NCBI RefSeq assembly: GCF_027942865.1
Contig: NC_134515.1
Span: 28,649,949 to 28,713,948, forward strand
Reading direction: 5' to 3'
Source: Odontesthes bonariensis
Lineage: Eukaryota; Chordata; Actinopteri; Atheriniformes; Atherinopsidae
DNA: 64,000 nt
Shown here in pieces: positions 2,566 to 62,320 of the stretch. The notes beneath the pieces are model-generated. The model had not been told where the DNA came from, ran no database searches, and saw only the letters and a list, made by a program, of their open reading frames with translations. A program made the position numbers and the translations under genes. Numbering within the stretch: position 1 is the stretch's first letter; the number at the start of each line of letters is the position of its first letter.

Positions 2566-4777
2566 CCATCCATCATCTTCCGCTGGTCCGGGGATCGGGT
2601 CGCGGGGGCAGCAGCTTGAGCAAAGAGACCCAGACGTCCCTGTCCCCGGCCACTTCCTCCAGCTCTTCTGGGGGGACCCCGAGGCGTTCCCAGGCCAGCC
2701 GAGAGACATAGTCTCTCCAACGTGTCCTGGGTCTTCCCCGGGGCCTCCTCCCAGTGGGACGGGCCCGGAACACCTCACCGGGGAGGCGTCCAGGAGGCAT
2801 TCTCACTAGATGCCCGAGCCACCTCATCTGACTCCTCTCGATGCCGGAGGAGCAGCGGTTCTACTCCGAGCCTCTCCCGGATGACCGAGCTTCTCACCCT
2901 ATCTCTAAGGGAGAGCCCAGACACCCTGCGGAGGAAACTCATTTCGGCCGCTTGTATTCGCGATCTCGTTCTTTCGGTCACTACCCACAGCTCGTGACCA
3001 TAGGGGAGGGTAGGAACATAGATTGACCGGTAAATCGAGAGCTTCGCCTTCTGGCTCAGCTCCTTCTTCACCACGACGGGCCGGTGCAGAGCCCGCATCA
3101 CTGCAGACGCCGCACCGATCCGTCTGTCAATCTCCTGCTCCATTCGTCCCCCACTCGTGAACAAGACCCCGAGATACTTGAACTCCTCCACTTGGGGAAG
3201 GATCTCATTCCCGACCCGGAGAGGGCATTCCACCCTTTTCCGGCCGAGGACCATGGTCTCGGATTTGGAGGTGCTGATTCTCATCCCAGCCCAGCCCCGG
3301 CGCCACGAGGGGGCACTCGCGGGCATTGCCCCCCCATCCACCCCGGTGTGCCCCCCCTGGGTTCACTTTGACGTTTGACCGGAGATTGCTTCAAACACTG
3401 AGGGGACACGATCTAAAAGTCTTAAATAAAAAATACGTTTTTTAAGGTCTTAAAATGTTTTAAATTTCTCTGATTTTCGAAGAGTGGCATTAAATTTCAT
3501 CTGGGCGGAATGAAAGAAAGATATGTCTGGAGAGAGCTTTTGTGTGTGCGCCAGTACTTCCGGTGGAAACTTCCGGTGATTTGACAGCTAAGCTAACGCG
3601 TCAGGTTAAGGCCAGTGGCCATAAACAAAGGCTATAGCCGAGAAGAAAGATAATAAAATAACGCAGCTAAAAAGACTAGCTTTCTTCAGTAGCCTAATGC
3701 TTACCGATTTAGCAAGCCTAGCAGCCTCGTTGCTAATGCTAGCCGCCGTAACGTTACCAACCATACCCGACGTCCCGGGGAAAATTGCCAGGGCCGATTT
3801 TTTTTTTTTTCCCCAGTCCGACCCTGAACTACATGTTCAAATGCGTTCTAATGTCGGCTCAGCGCCAGTCTAAATTCACTGTGGCCGTGCGTGGGCGTTG
3901 TTGTTGCGCTCCTGTTTGCTCGTTGTGTGTATTAGTATTAATGGCGACTAGAAAGGGGCAAACGTGATCTGGGCTTTGCGTTCAATTTATGCACCGATGA
4001 TTATACAGAGTGGATTAAACTGTCAGGCTATTCGAGATGTCTCCGAATGCCTACTTTAAAGGAAGCGTGATGTGTTTGCCAGGGCTGCCTAAACGAGTTG
4101 CCAACCGTCCCTTGAAATAATGGAATCGTCCCGTATTTAGTAACAAAAGGACAGTTCCTTATTGTGCTGAAACGGGGCCCACAATTCGGTTAAAATGCAG
4201 AAAATTGCATCTAAGAAATACCAAATTTTCGGGGGGAGGACCCCCAGACCCCCCGCTAGGGGGCCCCCCCTACTCATTTAAATGCCCGTCCAATAGCTTG
4301 TTTCTGCCGCCGGGTCTGTCCCAGCCGCTTCACATTCGGCTGCGAAACGCTCCAGTGAGAGCTGAAGGTCACGGCCTGAGGACGCCAACAGAACCACATC
4401 GTCCGCAAAGAGCAGAGACCCGATTCTGAGGTCGCCAAACCGGACCCCCTCAACGCCCTGGCTGCGCCTAGAAATTCTGTCCATAAAAATTATGAACAGA
4501 ATCGGTGACAAAGGGCAGCCCTGACCGAGCCAACCCTCGCAGGAAACATGTCCGACTTACTGCCGGCAATGCGGACCAAACTCTGACACCGGTCATACAG
4601 GGACCGAACAGCCTGTATCAAAGAGTCCGGCACTCCATACTCCCGGAGCACCCCCCACAAGAGTCCCCGAGGGACACGGTCGAACGCCTTCTCCAAGTCC
4701 ACAAAACACATGTAGACCGGTTGGGCGAACTCCCATGCACTCCAGGATCCTGCGGAGGGTATAGAGCTGGTCCACTG
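2566..4777 (-). mobile_element. RTE-like LINE, 5'-truncated, ORF2 3' part, split by a hAT insertion
   Basis: On the minus strand, 4777-4320 encodes the reverse-transcriptase palm, including FVDLEKAFDRVPRGLLW and the active-site block LLFADDVVLLAS. Then 3291-2573 encodes the thumb and C-terminal region (EFKYLGVLFTSGGRMEQEID, then RPRGRPRTRWRDYVSRLAWE). The two parts join in frame once the 3292-4326 insert and its target repeat are removed (AECEAAG, then MRISTSK). Frameshifts near 4490-4511 and 2775-2830 make it non-functional. The 3' end is a (GGAT)n tail at 2566-2573. A possible 7-bp target duplication, CAATAAT, lies at 2559-2565 and 4778-4784. RTE assignment rests on general resemblance, so the clade is uncertain. 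Confidence 0.85.
3292..4318. mobile_element. Non-autonomous hAT element with 8-bp target duplication
   Basis: This 1,027-bp insert interrupts the LINE reverse-transcriptase frame. It is flanked by an exact 8-bp direct repeat, TCCCAGCC, at 3284-3291 and 4319-4326. Its ends are inverted repeats: CAGCCCCGGCGCCA on the left and CAGACCCGGCGGCA on the right read in reverse, which match at 12 of 14 positions. An 8-bp duplication with CAG...CTG ends is the hAT signature. The interior has no transposase-like frame. It holds G/C homopolymer-rich blocks near both ends (3330-3360 and 4232-4270) and a poly-T run at 3799-3811. Confidence 0.85.
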
Positions 4778-5465
4778 CAATAATCAGCAGAGAAACGCAG
4801 ACCTCAGAGTAGCTGGGTTGCTCTTTTCATCAGTATCACATGCATGTTAAAGGGAAGAGAGGGTTTTTCTTCTGCTAGCTTGTGTCTTGTGTTTTTACAT
4901 AGTATTTCCCCTACAATTGTGCAAGCCCGGTGGGCTTTCAGACCAACGAGAACCTCTACCAGGGCAAAAGAATAAGTAAATAAAATGGAAAGCTTCTAAC
5001 TGTCAAACAAAAGAACATAAGACTGAGCAGCCTAATCAGTTAGATTAAAATGAACTTGTTTCATCTCCGTCTCCTCCATAGCACAGCAGGGAAGACACAG
5101 TTTCTTCAGTTTATGATAACAAAGACACTAAATTCAATGGCAAACTGATAAGTGTTGCTTCCCTAAAGGAAAGGGTTGTTTGAGGTACACTTAGATAAGA
5201 CTAACTAAAGCTTATAACACACAAAGCGTTGTTATAAATAGTTTACAGAAATGTATATTACAACATAAAGAAAACAATATTTAGTTGGATTTTAAGATAA
5301 AATTCTCTGTATGGATTAAAAGGTAACATGTTAGTCTAGCGGAGAGTCATCAGTATACTCTAACATATAAAGCAGGCTTACAGCAGACCTCTCTCCCTGC
5401 TGACTCTTAAACTCAAAATGAAAACTGAAAATAAAGTCCGCACACCAATCTCCCGTTTCTAAATT

Positions 5466-5506
5466 TAATGTGACGTTTCGGGCAGCCTGCCCTTCCTCAG
5501 ACATTA
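5466..5506 (-). ncRNA. Hammerhead-ribozyme-like motif, left Penelope-like arm
   Basis: Read on the minus strand, the order is TAATGT, CTGAGGA, a stem (GGGCA/TGCCC with a GGC loop), GAAAC, GTC and ACATTA. CTGAGGA fits the conserved CUGANGA box and GAAA the second box. TAATGT and ACATTA pair perfectly as a six-base-pair stem I closing on the GUC cleavage site. Stem III would be only AC/GU with no loop, so cleavage as a dimer is more plausible than as a monomer. One extra A lies between the CUGANGA box and stem II. Penelope-like elements are known to carry minimal hammerheads in their terminal repeats. Activity is inferred. Confidence 0.65.
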
Positions 5507-5866
5507 CAAACACATAAAAAACCACTGTTTAAATACCCATGATCCCATAGGTGGTTCAACCCCCACCCAGGTGATCCCCATTGATGTTAATCACCTGGGA
5601 AAAGTGACGTGTGCAACATAAAACCACATAGTGAATGTCCAATATATGCAATATGTACAATGAAATATGAAAAATGAAAACTGGTCAGAGAAAAAGCACA
5701 AGGAAGTACGACCATCAGAGAAGAGCTCCAGATCTTGTCTAATCATTAACATTGCCCAAATGATGGGAATAGACAATAGCAAAGTCCCAGTAAGGAGACA
5801 TTGAATAAATATACAGATAAAAATACAGAGCATCCCACATTACAATATGACAAAAAACAAAAAACA

Positions 5867-6994
5867 TTACAAAAAAGGTCTCAAGTCAAATTCTTCGTTC
5901 AGTCCCTTTGGGGACAGCGTGTCCAACGTATAGATCCAGTACGCCTCTCTTTTTAGCAAAAGAGTGTTGATATCGCCACCTCGGCTGGGGGGTCTGATAC
6001 GTTCAATGCCTGTATAGCGCAGGGAAGCTACAGTGTGTGATGCTTGTGTGAAATGTAAAGCAACAGGACTTTTAACGTCATGGTTGCGGATCGTGGACCT
6101 ATGTTCCGCAATCCGGGTTTTGAGTGGCCTAGTTGTTTTGCCAATATAGGCTAGCCCACAGGGGCATCTCAACATGTAAATGACATTGTTCGTGTTACAG
6201 GTGATTGTGCCACGGATCTTATATTCTTTGCCTGTGCGTGGATGGTTGAAAGACTTAGTTTTATGTGTAAAGTTGCATTGAATACAGTTATTGCACTTGT
6301 AGTTCCCGCTCGGTGTCTGACGTAGAAAATGCTGTGTGTGTGGTGGGTGGTGGGCTCTCACTAGCATGTTTCTCAGGTTCGGTGGACGTTTAAACACAAC
6401 TTTAGGAGCTGATGTAAAGACTGAAAGGGCAGAGTCTGACTCTATAATGTGCCAGTGTTTGTTAATGACAGATTGAAACTCCTTAGCTAGTGGTGAGTAC
6501 TGAACCACACACATCAGATTGGGTTGTTCACGGGCTTGTCTTCTTCTTTGTAAGCAATCCGTTTGGGACATCCCCTGAAAGCGGTCCCGTGCATGGGATA
6601 CCCACCCCGATCTGTACTGTCTCTGGCTGAATCTTTGCTCAAGATCTTTAGCTTGCAATTCAAAGTCTTCATCAGTGCTACAGATGCGCCTGATGCGATT
6701 GAATTGTGAGATAGGCAGAGATTTTTTCAGTGGCACTGGGTGATAGGAGTGTCCATGTAAAATGGAGTTTCTGTCTGTATTTTTGCGATAGAGCGTGGTG
6801 CCCAGTCTGTGGGAGTCTCTGTATATTGTGATGTCTAAAAAGCTCATCTTGTGTGCATCAAAGTCCATTGTGAATTTAAGATGTGGGCAAGCACTGTTCA
6901 TAAAGGTGTGAAATTCTTTGAGCTGAGTCTCTGAGCCCCTCCACAAGAACCATATATCGTCGATGTACCTTTTCCAGTTCGACAGAAACTCCAT
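5867..6994 (-). CDS. Penelope-like protein: RT end plus GIY-YIG endonuclease (left copy, partial)
   Basis: The minus-strand frame starts within the reverse-transcriptase domain. NWKRYIDDIWFLW carries the YxDD catalytic box, followed by the end of the RT domain (HKMSFLDITIYRDSHRLGTT). Next comes a linker with a Cys-rich motif (KCNNCIQCNF) and a GIY-YIG nuclease domain: VIYMLRCPCGLAYIGKTTR, the arginine-containing RPLKTRIAEH, and a glutamate in LLLKREAYWIY. The RT-plus-GIY-YIG order defines Penelope-like elements. The first five residues (MEFLS) are read from the antisense of the other arm, so this ATG is an artefact of the junction at 6980/6981 and not the element's true start. Everything 5' of the YxDD box is missing. 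Confidence 0.88.
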   Translation of the reverse strand: MEFLSNWKRYIDDIWFLWRGSETQLKEFHTFMNSACPHLKFTMDFDAHKMSFLDITIYRDSHRLGTTLYRKNTDRNSILHGHSYHPVPLKKSLPISQFNRIRRICSTDEDFELQAKDLEQRFSQRQYRSGWVSHARDRFQGMSQTDCLQRRRQAREQPNLMCVVQYSPLAKEFQSVINKHWHIIESDSALSVFTSAPKVVFKRPPNLRNMLVRAHHPPHTQHFLRQTPSGNYKCNNCIQCNFTHKTKSFNHPRTGKEYKIRGTITCNTNNVIYMLRCPCGLAYIGKTTRPLKTRIAEHRSTIRNHDVKSPVALHFTQASHTVASLRYTGIERIRPPSRGGDINTLLLKREAYWIYTLDTLSPKGLNEEFDLRPFL

Positions 6995-7889
6995 TTTACA
7001 TGGACACTCCTATCACCCAGTGCCACTGAAAAAATCTCTGCCTATCTCACAATTCAATCGCATCAGGCGCATCTGTAGCACTGATGAAGACTTTGAATTG
7101 CAAGCTAAAGATCTTGAGCAAAGATTCAGCCAGAGACAGTACAGATCGGGGTGGGTATCCCATGCACGGGACCGCTTTCAGGGGATGTCCCAAACGGATT
7201 GCTTACAAAGAAGAAGACAAGCCCGTGAACAACCCAATCTGATGTGTGTGGTTCAGTACTCACCACTAGCTAAGGAGTTTCAATCTGTCATTAACAAACA
7301 CTGGCACATTATAGAGTCAGACTCTGCCCTTTCAGTCTTTACATCAGCTCCTAAAGTTGTGTTTAAACGTCCACCGAACCTGAGAAACATGCTAGTGAGA
7401 GCCCACCACCCACCACACACACAGCATTTTCTACGTCAGACACCGAGCGGGAACTACAAGTGCAATAACTGTATTCAATGCAACTTTACACATAAAACTA
7501 AGTCTTTCAACCATCCACGCACAGGCAAAGAATATAAGATCCGTGGCACAATCACCTGTAACACGAACAATGTCATTTACATGTTGAGATGCCCCTGTGG
7601 GCTAGCCTATATTGGCAAAACAACTAGGCCACTCAAAACCCGGATTGCGGAACATAGGTCCACGATCCGCAACCATGACGTTAAAAGTCCTGTTGCTTTA
7701 CATTTCACACAAGCATCACACACTGTAGCTTCCCTGCGCTATACAGGCATTGAACGTATCAGACCCCCCAGCCGAGGTGGCGATATCAACACTCTTTTGC
7801 TAAAAAGAGAGGCGTACTGGATCTATACGTTGGACACGCTGTCCCCAAAGGGACTGAACGAAGAATTTGACTTGAGACCTTTTTTGTAA
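6963..7889 (+). CDS. Penelope-like protein: linker plus GIY-YIG endonuclease (right copy, partial)
   Basis: From RNSILHGHSYHP to the C-terminal FDLRPFL this plus-strand frame is identical in protein sequence to the left copy. It keeps the Cys-rich linker and the complete GIY-YIG domain (NVIYMLRCPCGLAYIGKTTR). It lacks the YxDD box because this copy is truncated about 70 codons further downstream. The apparent start at 6963 and the residues before RNSIL come from the spacer. A nuclease-only product could in principle be made, but no promoter or real start is visible. Confidence 0.85.
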   Translation: MYLFQFDRNSILHGHSYHPVPLKKSLPISQFNRIRRICSTDEDFELQAKDLEQRFSQRQYRSGWVSHARDRFQGMSQTDCLQRRRQAREQPNLMCVVQYSPLAKEFQSVINKHWHIIESDSALSVFTSAPKVVFKRPPNLRNMLVRAHHPPHTQHFLRQTPSGNYKCNNCIQCNFTHKTKSFNHPRTGKEYKIRGTITCNTNNVIYMLRCPCGLAYIGKTTRPLKTRIAEHRSTIRNHDVKSPVALHFTQASHTVASLRYTGIERIRPPSRGGDINTLLLKREAYWIYTLDTLSPKGLNEEFDLRPFL

Positions 7890-8249
7890 TGTTTTTTGTT
7901 TTTTGTCATATTGTAATGTGGGATGCTCTGTATTTTTATCTGTATATTTATTCAATGTCTCCTTACTGGGACTTTGCTATTGTCTATTCCCATCATTTGG
8001 GCAATGTTAATGATTAGACAAGATCTGGAGCTCTTCTCTGATGGTCGTACTTCCTTGTGCTTTTTCTCTGACCAGTTTTCATTTTTCATATTTCATTGTA
8101 CATATTGCATATATTGGACATTCACTATGTGGTTTTATGTTGCACACGTCACTTTTCCCAGGTGATTAACATCAATGGGGATCACCTGGGTGGGGGTTGA
8201 ACCACCTATGGGATCATGGGTATTTAAACAGTGGTTTTTTATGTGTTTG

Positions 8250-8290
8250 TAATGTCTGAGGAAGGGCAGGCTGCCCGAAACGTCACATTA
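8250..8290 (+). ncRNA. Hammerhead-ribozyme-like motif, right Penelope-like arm
   Basis: This is the exact reverse-strand counterpart of the motif at 5466-5506, lying about 360 bases after the stop codon of the right-hand frame. It has the same order: stem I (TAATGT...ACATTA), CTGAGGA, a five-base-pair stem II, GAAAC, then GTC. It is 41 nt long. The two motifs face outward near both ends of the inverted dimer. Confidence 0.65.
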
Positions 8291-8424
8291 AATTTAGAAA
8301 CGGGAGATTGGTGTGCGGACTTTATTTTCAGTTTTCATGTTACTTTGCTAGTCCTGCACCCATACTTTTTTTGAGACGGATGTGCGTGTTTTTTCTTTGC
8401 TCAACGTGGACTCTTAAACTCAAA

Positions 8425-12248
<3,824 letters not shown>

Positions 12249-12751: not shown

Positions 12752-26710
<13,959 letters not shown>

Positions 26711-59700: not shown

Positions 59701-62320
59701 ACCCAACATGCCACCCAGCTCCTGGTGCAGGCTATGGTCATCTCCTGCCTTGACTACTGCAACGCTCTCCTAACTGGTCTCCCAGCCTGTGCTGTGAAAC
59801 CGCTGCAGATGGTCCAGCACGCGGCGGCGCGTCTGGTCTTCCATCAGCCGAACAGAGCACACGCCACCCCTCTGTTCATTGAACTCCACTGGCTACCCAT
59901 AGCCGCCCGCATCAAATTCAAGTCACTGATGCTAGCCTTCAAAGTGCTTAATGGAACGTCTCCCATCTACTTGAATGCTCTTGCAAAGGCTTATTTCACA
60001 ACCCGGTCACTCCGGTCGTCACAGGATTGTCGTCCAGCAGTGCCTACACCACGCTTAAGACGATCCGGACTCTTTTCATGTGTCGCTCCACGATGGTGGA
60101 ATGACCTTCTGAGTGCTACCAGAACAGGGGCGTCTCTGTCTAGCTTCAAGAAACTCTTGAAGACCCAGCTCTTCAGAGAGCATCTCCTATCCCAGCACTT
60201 ACCCTGTACCCTCTATCTCTACACTGTCACCTCTGACAGAGTCTGACTAGTGGTTTCCTTCTATGTAGCTTATTGTTAGCTTTGATGTTAGCTGTAATGT
60301 TATATCCTCATTTGTAAGTCGCTTTGGATAAAAGCGTCTGCCAAATGCATAAACATAAACATGATGAGTTTAGAGATATATATTTTAGACCTCATGATAA
60401 ACTTTGCTTCATTTGTGTGGTTGGAGGTTTATGTAAACTGTGATGTACAGCTTTGACAGCAGTTTAATTTCATTGCAGCCTTTCCAGTTTCAGTGCAGAA
60501 TGGCTCCCTCCACCAGAAGGACACGGTGCATGATAATGACTTTGAGCCCTATCTCACCAGCCAGACCAGCCAGGTAGGAAAATGGGAGGCACTTTTGAAA
60601 TTTAAACTTTTGAGGAATCTCTGAAATGTCTTGTATCGAAAACTAATGATTACTCTGTTTCTGTTTGTAGAATAACAGCTATCAGTCCATGACAGACCCT
60701 TACTTGTCCAGCTATTATGCCCCCTCTATTGGATTTCCTTACCCTCTCAATGAGGCCCCCTGGTCCACAGGAGGCGACCCACCGATTCCCTACCTGACAC
60801 CCTATGCCCCACTCAGTAATGGAGACCATCACTTCATGCCTGACACTGTGTTTGGGCAGCCCGGTGGGCTCAGCAGCAGCATTTACCCCCACAGGTTTAA
60901 CTTTTTCCCAGAGAATCCGGCGTTCTCGGCCTGGGGCACCAGTGGTTCTCAGGGCCAGCAGACTCAGAACTCAGCCTACGGGGGCAGCTACAGCTACCCA
61001 CCAAGCTCTCTGGGAGGCACATTGGTCCCTGATGGGCAGACAGGTTTCCATAGTGACACCCTGAGCAAGGCTCCAGGCATGAACAGCCTAGAGCAGGGCA
61101 TGCTAGGCCTAAAAATAGGCGGGGATGTGACAGGAAGCGGCTCAGGTGGGAAGAGTGCAGGCTCCGTGATTGGTGGTGGCGGTAGTGTAGCTGCAGCTGT
61201 TGCCACAGGCAACGGTGGCACCTCGGTAGGAATGCCCCTTCAGAAACCTACGTCGTGGGCTGCTATTGCCAGTAAACCCGCCAAGCTGCAGCAACAAAAG
61301 ATCAAGAACAAACCTGGTGTTCCGATGATTGGAGGAGCTCTGCCTCCTCCTCCAATTAAACACAACATGGACATTGATACATGGGATAATAAAGGGACTG
61401 GTACCAAGATGGCCCCTCCCACGACCCACCACCACCACCACCACCAACACCACCAACAGCACCCGCCCCAGCTTCACTCCCACGTCCCCAGTCTCATACC
61501 TCCCCTTCAGCAGTCCCTGCAGTCTGCCCAGTCCCTTGTGCAGCAGATGACCATGCAGGGTCCTCCTCCGCCCCCTCCACACTCTTACCAGAACCACAGC
61601 TCTGCTCCAACACCTCAAAACCGATGGGTGGCTCCGCGTAATCGCAACCTTTGCTATGGTGGTGGGAGCTTGGACAGCAGTGGCTCCTCAAACGGCGGCG
61701 GTATGGGGTGTGGTGTTATGGGGGGAGGGGGCATGCCTCCAGAGCTGGGCTTAGACTCCCATCCTGTGCTGGAGAAACTGCGAGCAGCACACAGCTACAA
61801 CCCCAAGGAGTTTGACTGGAACCTGAAAAACGGCCGCGTATTCATCATCAAGAGCTACTCCGAGGACGACATCCACCGCTCCATCAAATACTCCATCTGG
61901 TGCAGCACGGAGCACGGCAATAAGCGTTTGGACTCAGCCTACAGAGGGATGAACTCTAAAGGTCCCGTGTACTTGTTGTTCAGCGTCAACGGCAGCGGGC
62001 ATTTCTGCGGCGTGGCGGAGATGCACTCTCCCGTGGACTACAGCACCAGCGCTGGTGTCTGGGCGCAGGACAAGTGGAAGGGCAAGTTTGATGTGAACTG
62101 GTTGTTTGTTAAGGACGTGCCTAATAGCCAGCTGCGCCACATCCGCCTGGAAAACAACGACAACAAGCCAGTCACCAACTCGCGTGACACTCAGGAGGTT
62201 CCTCTGGAAAAGGCGAAGCAGGTGCTCAAGATTATTGCTCAGTACAAACACACGACCTCCATCTTTGATGACTTCTCCCACTATGAGAAGAAGCAGGAGG
62301 AGGAGGAGGTGGTGAAAAAG
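56706..62320 (+). CDS. ythdf1: YTH m6A RNA-binding protein 1 (last exon not found)
   Basis: Exons 56706-56732, 57095-57122, 60494-60573 and 60671-62320 give 595 in-frame codons. The start MSTASIDPQ aligns with human MSATSVDTQ. Then come [29 protein letters not shown] and the low-complexity region ([40 protein letters not shown]). The YTH domain is at about residues 412-577 ([20 protein letters not shown]). Aromatic-cage tryptophans sit in [17 protein letters not shown] and the following KWKG. Family role: cytoplasmic reader of N6-methyladenosine in mRNA, linked to translation and decay. The donor at 62321 (AAG|GTAGTC) is followed by no recognised terminal exon; in human it encodes only about eight residues. 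Reading on past the donor would add 16 codons to a TAG. An alternative acceptor at 60478 would add AFPVS in frame. A His-rich stretch ([12 protein letters not shown]) is not in human YTHDF1. Confidence 0.93.
57706..58958. mobile_element. PIF/Harbinger-type transposon in ythdf1 intron 2
   Basis: The ends are inverted repeats: GGCTCTCATTTATCAA on the left and TTGATAAATGAGGGCC on the right (one mismatch). On the plus strand 58082-58276 encodes a degraded Myb/SANT-type helper ([16 protein letters not shown], then [16 protein letters not shown]). On the minus strand 58285-58542 encodes the C-terminal nuclease part ([20 protein letters not shown], then [14 protein letters not shown]), as in HARBI1-type transposases. 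Two convergent frames of this kind are the PIF/Harbinger pattern. The upstream catalytic part is missing. No 3-bp target duplication was confirmed. Confidence 0.75.
57962..58000. repeat. Perfect 16-bp hairpin inside the Harbinger element
   Basis: CAACGCTGTTGACAGC and its exact reverse complement GCTGTCAACAGCGTTG flank a 7-base loop. It is internal to the transposon at 57706-58958. Confidence 0.85.
59090..60356 (+). mobile_element. L2-type LINE, 5'-truncated, in ythdf1 intron 2
   Basis: The frame 59107-59643, then 59650-60246 after an in-frame TAA (59641-59643), encodes the reverse-transcriptase second half: [20 protein letters not shown], the active-site block [29 protein letters not shown], and the C-terminal blocks [15 protein letters not shown] and [20 protein letters not shown]. 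The usual YADD is YADN, so the enzyme would be inactive. The 3' end AAGTCGCTTTGGATAAAAGC, then GTCTGCCAAATGCATAAACA, is the L2-type tail of fish genomes. Frameshifts around 59220-59290 add further damage. Confidence 0.85.

Follow-up and report, generated by a model that had tools for sequence, protein, structure and literature searches.

Head-to-head pairs of Penelope-like element copies inside one target duplication in Odontesthes bonariensis

We analyzed a 64,000-nucleotide stretch of the Odontesthes bonariensis assembly (contig NC_134515.1 of GCF_027942865.1), hereafter the window, in which positions 5418-8408 consist of two 5'-truncated copies of a Penelope-like element (PLE) with their 5' ends face to face and a single 16-bp target duplication around both. 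The duplication is an exact direct repeat, GACTCTTAAACTCAAA, at 5402-5417 and 8409-8424, and no other direct repeat of at least 14 nt was found when 5000-8800 was scanned. On the reverse strand, the left arm runs from its 5' end at 6981 to its 3' end at 5418, and on the forward strand the right arm covers 6981-8408, such that the two meet at 6981 with a 1-bp overlap. Both arms carry the same 3' half in opposite orientation, forming an inverted repeat at 5415-6775 and 6981-8341 (1,361 nt each) with 0 mismatches in 1,358 nt and about 0-1 in 1,361, as counts differ by comparison. The 205-bp spacer between them (6776-6980, reverse strand) is reverse transcriptase (RT) sequence found only in the left arm. 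A near-perfect palindrome of 1.36 kb bracketed by an exact 16-bp repeat is far beyond chance.

An earlier note on this DNA had proposed the PLE identity, the head-to-head layout, the shared 3' half, the one-sided spacer and the bracketing repeat, all of which were borne out. It had also put the YxDD box of the left copy at the junction. The YIDD codons of the left arm, which specify the RT catalytic motif, do lie just inside it (6956-6967, reverse strand), although the junction itself required correction to 6981; the right arm, whose truncation point lies downstream, lacks these codons. However, the two copies are not equivalent, as the note had assumed in ending the right arm at 8338. That arm continues to 8408 through a previously unmentioned 70-bp tail (8339-8408, forward strand) that is absent from the left arm. 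The tail corresponds to the stretch between two inferred reverse-transcription start positions, an interpretation taken from work on an Anolis PLE in which reverse transcription begins at either of two neighboring internal positions that delimit the tail (PMC11167929).

The family encodes RT in a single open reading frame, as seen in stop-to-stop frames of 796 aa (locus L015) and 830 aa (locus L010) that matched RVT_1 above the Pfam cut-off (E 1.4e-8 and 2.6e-8, respectively); the truncated window copy gave no RT match in Pfam. By eye, we assigned what we take to be the YIDD and DKG motifs. The C-terminal part of the reading frame (7449-7889, forward strand), a coding region also present in the left arm, contains YIGKT, presumably the motif of PLE GIY-YIG endonucleases. 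YIGKT and its neighboring residues are conserved, at 60% identity, between this family and a second PLE family described below. Pfam returned no GIY-YIG match in the window copy or the L015 and L010 frames, and solved structures included no relative by sequence (E 1; E 0.01). An AlphaFold2 model of the endonuclease region, built from 2 sequences, had a pLDDT of 32 and was discarded.

A motif scan placed a putative minimal type I hammerhead ribozyme, with core and 6-bp stem I, in both arms: at 8250-8290 on the forward strand, with cleavage predicted after 8284, and at 5466-5506 on the reverse strand. As a control, the window was shuffled 20 times by mononucleotide, and 3 of these shuffles contained one match each, scored on the core alone. 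Rfam reported no hammerhead in the window region at E 1, the only hit being a chance snoRNA match (E 9.5), and RNA folding of the terminal region was not clearly better than that of shuffles (z of -1.1 and -0.06).

The earlier note recommended looking genome-wide for other head-to-head copies with flanking repeats, which turned up 14 more independent insertions. Specifically, 27 regions of the family were fetched from the same assembly and reduced to 24 independent insertions by leaving out L014 (a duplicate of L012) and L034 (83% identity) and merging L011 with L010. These 24 are the insertions detected by sequence search, which may miss older or more diverged copies. Head-to-head pairs accounted for 15 and single copies for 9; the inverted pair is therefore the usual insertion form of this PLE family and not the exception that the note had taken it for. 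The PLE layout of inverted terminal repeats, optional tail and target duplication was thus present in 15 of 24 insertions, while a direct (head-to-tail) arrangement occurred in none of the 27 regions. The 5' region of the element was found at two loci only.

All 15 pairs are enclosed by a single exact target duplication of 14-17 bp. One of them, L017, is inserted in a repeat, and all six uninterrupted paralogous copies of that repeat that we fetched carry the target once. No target-sequence consensus was evident by eye among the insertions. The same arrangement exists in the second PLE family, which is 66-69% identical to the window family in the matched stretch. Both loci fetched from it are head-to-head, each inside an exact 17-bp duplication and with the 3' end reaching further on one side than on the other. 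Because these two, out of 10 regions sought, were picked for their head-to-head matches, they speak to existence and not to frequency. In the hammerhead motif of this second family, stem II differs from that of the window family yet still pairs, and stem I has just 2 bp.

Every one of the 15 pairs combines one tailed and one tail-less arm. The tailed arm ends at ref 1627-1633 and its partner stops before the tail, at ref 1557-1570 in 12 of 15 pairs and earlier in L015 (ref 1541), L018 (ref 1454) and L020 (ref 1550); tail length in the family is 67-70 bp. Single copies comprised 5 with a tail and 4 without, and at these frequencies independent choice of start would give 15 mixed pairs out of 15 with p = 2.5e-5. 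In 6 pairs, the window included, the tail-less arm extends further 5' than the tailed arm, which implies that neither arm there was copied wholly from the other. That one of the inverted repeats may or may not carry a tail was described previously (PMC3846280). The one-tail rule is an addition of this analysis, as the portions of PMC11167929, PMC3846280, PMC12910113, PMC8969392 and PMC7761336 drawn on here do not state it as a rule. This rule disfavors fold-back copying; it would be compatible with the copying of one RNA twice.

At the inner junctions, the arms overlapped by 1-6 bp in 10 of the 14 tabulated cases, and at least 1 bp was common to both arms in 10 of 11 gap-free junctions (chance of about 0.0017). 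Filler was present at 3 of the 14, measuring 5-17 nt by exact 14-mer matching or 1-11 nt by BLAST ends, and the L010 junction has a longer templated filler; joining was thus not uniform. Arms overlap in sequence in 14 of 15 pairs, those of L033 sharing no overlap, and differ from each other in 12 of the 14 overlapping pairs. In 11 of these 14, the tail-less arm is no closer to its own partner than to some other copy, so a shared source of both arms is established only for L009, L010 and L017. Arm lengths within pairs were correlated across all 15 pairs (Spearman 0.68) and uncorrelated across the 10 pairs that were not both short (0.02). The pairs split into 5 both-short and 10 both-long (1/3003), which we rejected as evidence for one RNA: copies whose tail end is a variant, found in 4 of the 5 short pairs and also in L022, confound this split.

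We consider it probable that the window holds a single insertion of an endonuclease-bearing PLE, produced when both sides of a staggered double cut served for target-primed reverse transcription. The enzyme of the element would cut the two target strands at a spacing of 14-17 bp, and the 3' end exposed on each side would prime a cDNA within the 3' region of the element RNA. One cDNA would start at the outer position and so include the tail, and the other about 67-70 nt upstream and lack it. Both would head for the 5' region of the RNA, halt at different points, and be joined at a 0-6 bp overlap or via a short filler, after which gap filling of the overhangs would leave one target duplication around the head-to-head pair. 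The direct observations in support are the single duplication, an empty-site match for one pair (L017), outer ends that recur, the one-tail pattern and short overlaps at most junctions. What the enzyme does, in which order the steps occur, how the cDNAs are joined and whether one RNA or two take part are inferred. Since 9 of 24 insertions are single copies, two-ended priming would not be obligatory.

Alternative origins were weighed against the same observations. Identity of the window arms over 1,358 bp is what a palindromic chimera of sequencing or assembly would produce. Such an artefact is very improbable: a missed-adapter chimera would invert the flanks too, whereas the window arms stop where the element does, one of them having the tail and the other the spacer sequence. 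Moreover, 15 independent loci, each in its own flanking sequence, show this form, mostly with arms that differ. Partial tandems and nested PLE copies have been reported (PMC3846280), and a second element could have landed head-to-head beside or inside the first. We likewise give two separate insertions very little credence, given the one duplication around the whole pair in 15 of 15 cases and the lack of a second direct repeat in the window; at L017, the six uninterrupted paralogues with the target once disfavor them strongly. The earlier note had argued from the single duplication for one insertion event, and this held.

Copying of one strand back on itself is harder to dismiss and still unlikely. 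Here a single cDNA, or else an antisense RNA whose end folds over, would prime its own copying, and the authors of PMC3846280 favored self-priming on antisense RNA for head-to-head pairs with a single duplication in Adineta vaga. A local palindrome at the L010 junction, with arms of about 20 bp, is in its favor. However, among the printed junction strings stem-like sequence appears only in L029 (an ACATTA overlap) and in the fillers of L024 and L010, and short overlaps are the common form. Fold-back also predicts equal outer ends, which are unequal in 15 of 15 pairs, and in 6 of 15 each arm has sequence missing from the other. The template-switched origin, one of two intermediates suggested by the earlier note, fits poorly for similar reasons, as each window arm holds sequence absent from the other and the outer ends recur. 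For the other, a dimeric RNA as template, the data speak neither way, and it may have played a part. L1 elements undergo twin priming, in which the other target end serves as primer for a second cDNA at an internal point of the same RNA. The product has an inverted 5' part, short overlaps where the orientation switches, and no second copy of the 3' half. Our preferred model of two-ended priming is a relative of this process, sharing second-end priming, and the L033 arms, which lack overlap, equally fit an L1-like twin-priming product as they stand. Elsewhere we regard ordinary twin priming as slightly less likely still than fold-back. The window insertion contains the same 3' half twice, overlapping by 1,358 bp, as the earlier note had rightly objected; arms overlap in all pairs except L033, and in 12 of 15 pairs the second outer end recurs at one position near the 3' end instead of at varied internal points.

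Two cDNAs from two target ends fit better because the outer ends match two start sites of another PLE. The model agrees with the biochemistry of purified Anolis PLE protein, which cuts and extends both strands (PMC11167929). Tentatively, a single PLE RNA might be copied twice per integration, the first cDNA starting from the inner site, so that the outer site alone stays available, and the second having to start there and displacing the first. We hold this to be possible and no stronger given that a shared arm source was established for only 3 of 14 pairs. If true, the one-tail pattern in 15 of 15 pairs would follow, and the mirror-image pair would be a normal product and no accident. In the in vitro work of Frangieh et al., no difference in start site was seen between top and bottom strands (PMC11167929), and those data therefore do not predict a one-tail pattern.

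Head-to-head PLEs with one duplication were previously described in Adineta vaga (PMC3846280), and the window family is a further case. There, too, endonuclease-bearing Penelope elements occur in inverted arrangement, most frequently head-to-head, and several copies have one target duplication around the whole insert. The Adineta vaga elements differ in having target duplications of 8-10 bp versus 14-17 bp here, tails of 31 bp versus 67-70 bp, and, in several families, direct terminal repeats, of which we saw none in the window family (PMC3846280). Poseidon PAc of Anolis carolinensis has RT and GIY-YIG in one reading frame, a hammerhead motif, two start sites that bound the tail, and a protein that cuts and extends both strands. 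The window family resembles it in the RT, in a putative GIY-YIG region and hammerhead judged by motifs, and in the tail, whose bounding start sites, like the two-strand activity, are proposed from the insertions. PAc differs in being described as tandemly repeated, and the term head-to-head was not found in the portion of PMC11167929 consulted.

The integration scenario of Frangieh et al. ends with steps "yet to be validated experimentally" (PMC11167929). A family that is mostly head-to-head, with one duplication and exactly one tail per pair, gives a genomic counterpart to the in vitro observations of two start sites and of extension on both strands. The one-tail pattern can also be counted, and as a prediction it tells two-ended priming apart from fold-back copying. 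A further caution for work on large assemblies is that a perfect palindrome, even a long one, may be nothing more than an ordinary retrotransposon insertion. The consistently one-sided tail offers a clue to how a poorly understood class of elements moves.

We found two inverted arms of a Penelope-like element (PLE) at 5415-6775 and 6981-8341, each of 1,361 nt with 205 nt between them and printed as 100% complementary; one count gave 1 mismatch in 1,361 and another 0 in 1,358. An exact 16-mer lies on both sides (5402-5417 and 8409-8424), which bears out the palindrome and bracketing repeat described in the earlier note. The left arm is antisense and lacks the tail, that is, the 3' stretch between two inferred reverse-transcription start positions. 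The right arm is sense and 70 bp longer, its 70-bp tail (8339-8408, forward strand) standing directly before the second 16-mer. By comparison with the C1 copy of the family, where this sequence is uninterrupted, the arms join at 6981 with a 1-bp overlap; the left arm begins slightly upstream of the YIDD codons and the right arm ~205 bp downstream of the left arm's start point. The lack of any difference between arms at 1,358 sites here (locus L009), and at 740 sites in another pair of the family (L017), points to recent insertion or conversion between arms.

Elsewhere in the window, a second palindrome (18877-20163) has 621-nt arms at 99% and a 45-nt spacer. By eye, its ends resemble a Tc1/mariner element and each arm holds a PLE-terminal, hammerhead-like piece. 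A LINE-like reverse transcriptase remnant occupies 4278-4783 on the reverse strand, with RVT_1 matches at E 3.2e-9 and 7.1e-4 in two frames, and a UnaL2 LINE 3' element (Rfam RF00436) lies at 60301-60353 on the forward strand.

Longer copies in the same 945-Mb assembly contain stop-to-stop frames 796 and 830 aa long. In these copies, a reverse transcriptase domain exceeds the Pfam cut-off, a YIGKT motif is C-terminal, and a motif scan places a minimal hammerhead close to the 3' end. We take YIGKT to be typical of PLE GIY-YIG endonucleases. The endonuclease here is putative, and neither a profile search nor a structure model gave confirmation of one in the family. As far as the available portions of PMC3846280 and PMC11167929 describe them, endonuclease-bearing Penelope elements share the same anatomy of hammerhead motif, tail, inverted partner and target duplication.

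Searches with the whole feature and with its 3' end (all 36 candidates scored) returned close matches in an identical set of 27 regions, L009 to L035. These reduced to 24 independent insertions once L011 was merged with L010, and L014 (a duplicate of L012) and L034 (83% identity) were left out. Head-to-head pairs accounted for 15 of the 24 (L009, L010, L012, L013, L015, L017, L018, L019, L020, L022, L024, L027, L029, L030 and L033) and single copies for nine (L016, L021, L023, L025, L026, L028, L031, L032 and L035). A single exact duplication of 14-17 bp encloses the whole pair in 15/15 cases, and candidate duplications (8-16 bp) accompany seven of the nine single copies, of which the 8-bp case at L023 is weak. 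No head-to-tail copies were seen in the 27 fetched regions; the 5' region of the element was found at only two loci. L012 and L014, ~14 kb apart on C19, are one insertion present twice with identical duplication, flanks and junction, probably through segmental duplication after insertion. In the C1 pair, the tailed arm is broken by a later ~5.8-kb insertion (L010:8306 to L011:3645), which is A-rich at one end and carries a 16-bp duplication.

In every pair (15/15), one arm reaches the tail end (positions 1627-1633 of the reference, ref) and its partner stops before the tail, at ref 1557-1570 in 12 pairs and earlier in L015 (1541), L018 (1454) and L020 (1550). The same start was never used on both sides of one insertion (0/15). 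If sides chose independently at the frequencies of the single copies (five tailed, four tail-less), 15 mixed pairs out of 15 would have a probability of 2.5e-5. As a stated rule, this pattern was not found in the available portions of the open-access literature.

Fold-back would make each pair a hairpin copy of one arm from the other. The tailed arm extends further 5' in nine of the 15 pairs, by 1 nt in L030, and the tail-less arm does so in six (L009, L010, L015, L022, L029 and L033). Neither arm of these six can be wholly a copy of the other, because each contains sequence missing from its partner. Moreover, outer ends are unequal in all 15 pairs, which a hairpin copy would not produce. Ordinary L1-style twin priming would also fit L033 only, since the arms of that pair do not overlap. 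Eleven of the 14 tabulated junctions have no gap, with 1-6 bp shared in 10 of them; the other three carry filler, measured as 5-17 nt with exact 14-mer matching and as 1-11 nt with BLAST ends. At the fifteenth junction (L010), the filler is palindromic and repeated. Seven short insertions or short arms (L024, L025, L026, L027, L029, L031 and L032) have one 5' end each within 13 nt (ref 1469-1481), where the hammerhead motif has its 5' limit, as though this were the start of the template RNA.

Private substitutions common to partner arms were present in L009 (6), L010 (4), L013 (2), L017 (2) and L018 (1), and absent from the other nine of 14 pairs with overlapping arms. Among these 14, the partner was clearly the closest copy for L009, L010 and L017 only; another copy was equally close or closer in the remaining 11, as in L019, where 3 of 287 sites differ from the partner and 0 of 280 from L017. 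This comparison has little power either way because the family is young and overlaps are short.

An empty site was sought for L017, in paralogous copies of its high-copy host repeat; the best 40 of 322 candidates were scored and six of these 40 fetched. Since all six run uninterrupted through the site with the 15-mer once (five exact, one with a mismatch), the whole 1.95-kb pair most likely arrived as one unit, duplicating its target. The same 15-bp target, AAACACGAGTTAATG, was hit in two copies of this repeat, by the pair at L017:3229-5207 and by an 86-bp single copy at L032:1927-2046. L021 lies in the same repeat, ~70 bp off, and the three together suggest target preference.

Available portions of earlier work describe head-to-head inverted PLEs in A. 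vaga, with one duplication enclosing the insert as a whole and one of the inverted repeats tailed, attributed to self-priming on antisense RNA (PMC3846280); among known peculiarities, a curation guide, likewise seen in part, names inverted pLTRs and short 3' extensions (PMC8969392). The type of the window feature is therefore already known. The whole-feature query also matched a second PLE family in this assembly, at 66-69% identity in the matched stretches. Both of its fetched loci (L046 and L047), picked for head-to-head hits, have the head-to-head form with an exact 17-bp duplication. In each, the right arm extends further at the 3' end than the left, by 29 bp in L047; in L046 the left arm ends ~200 bp before the position usual for tail-less arms.

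According to the sections available of Frangieh et al. (PMC11167929), both strands of the target are cut and extended by a purified PLE from Anolis. Its reverse transcription begins at two adjacent sites within the RNA, which mark the limits of the genomic tail. Priming from two ends in this way predicts what is seen in the pairs. Both target ends would prime cDNA, so that 3' ends point outward on both sides and outer ends fall at either of two start positions; the two arms would be 5'-truncated separately and then joined inside at short overlaps, leaving one target duplication. The absence of same-start pairs (0/15) goes beyond the data in those sections. One RNA copied twice would explain the one-tail pattern, because use of the inner site would leave only the outer; so would two RNAs held by an asymmetric protein dimer.
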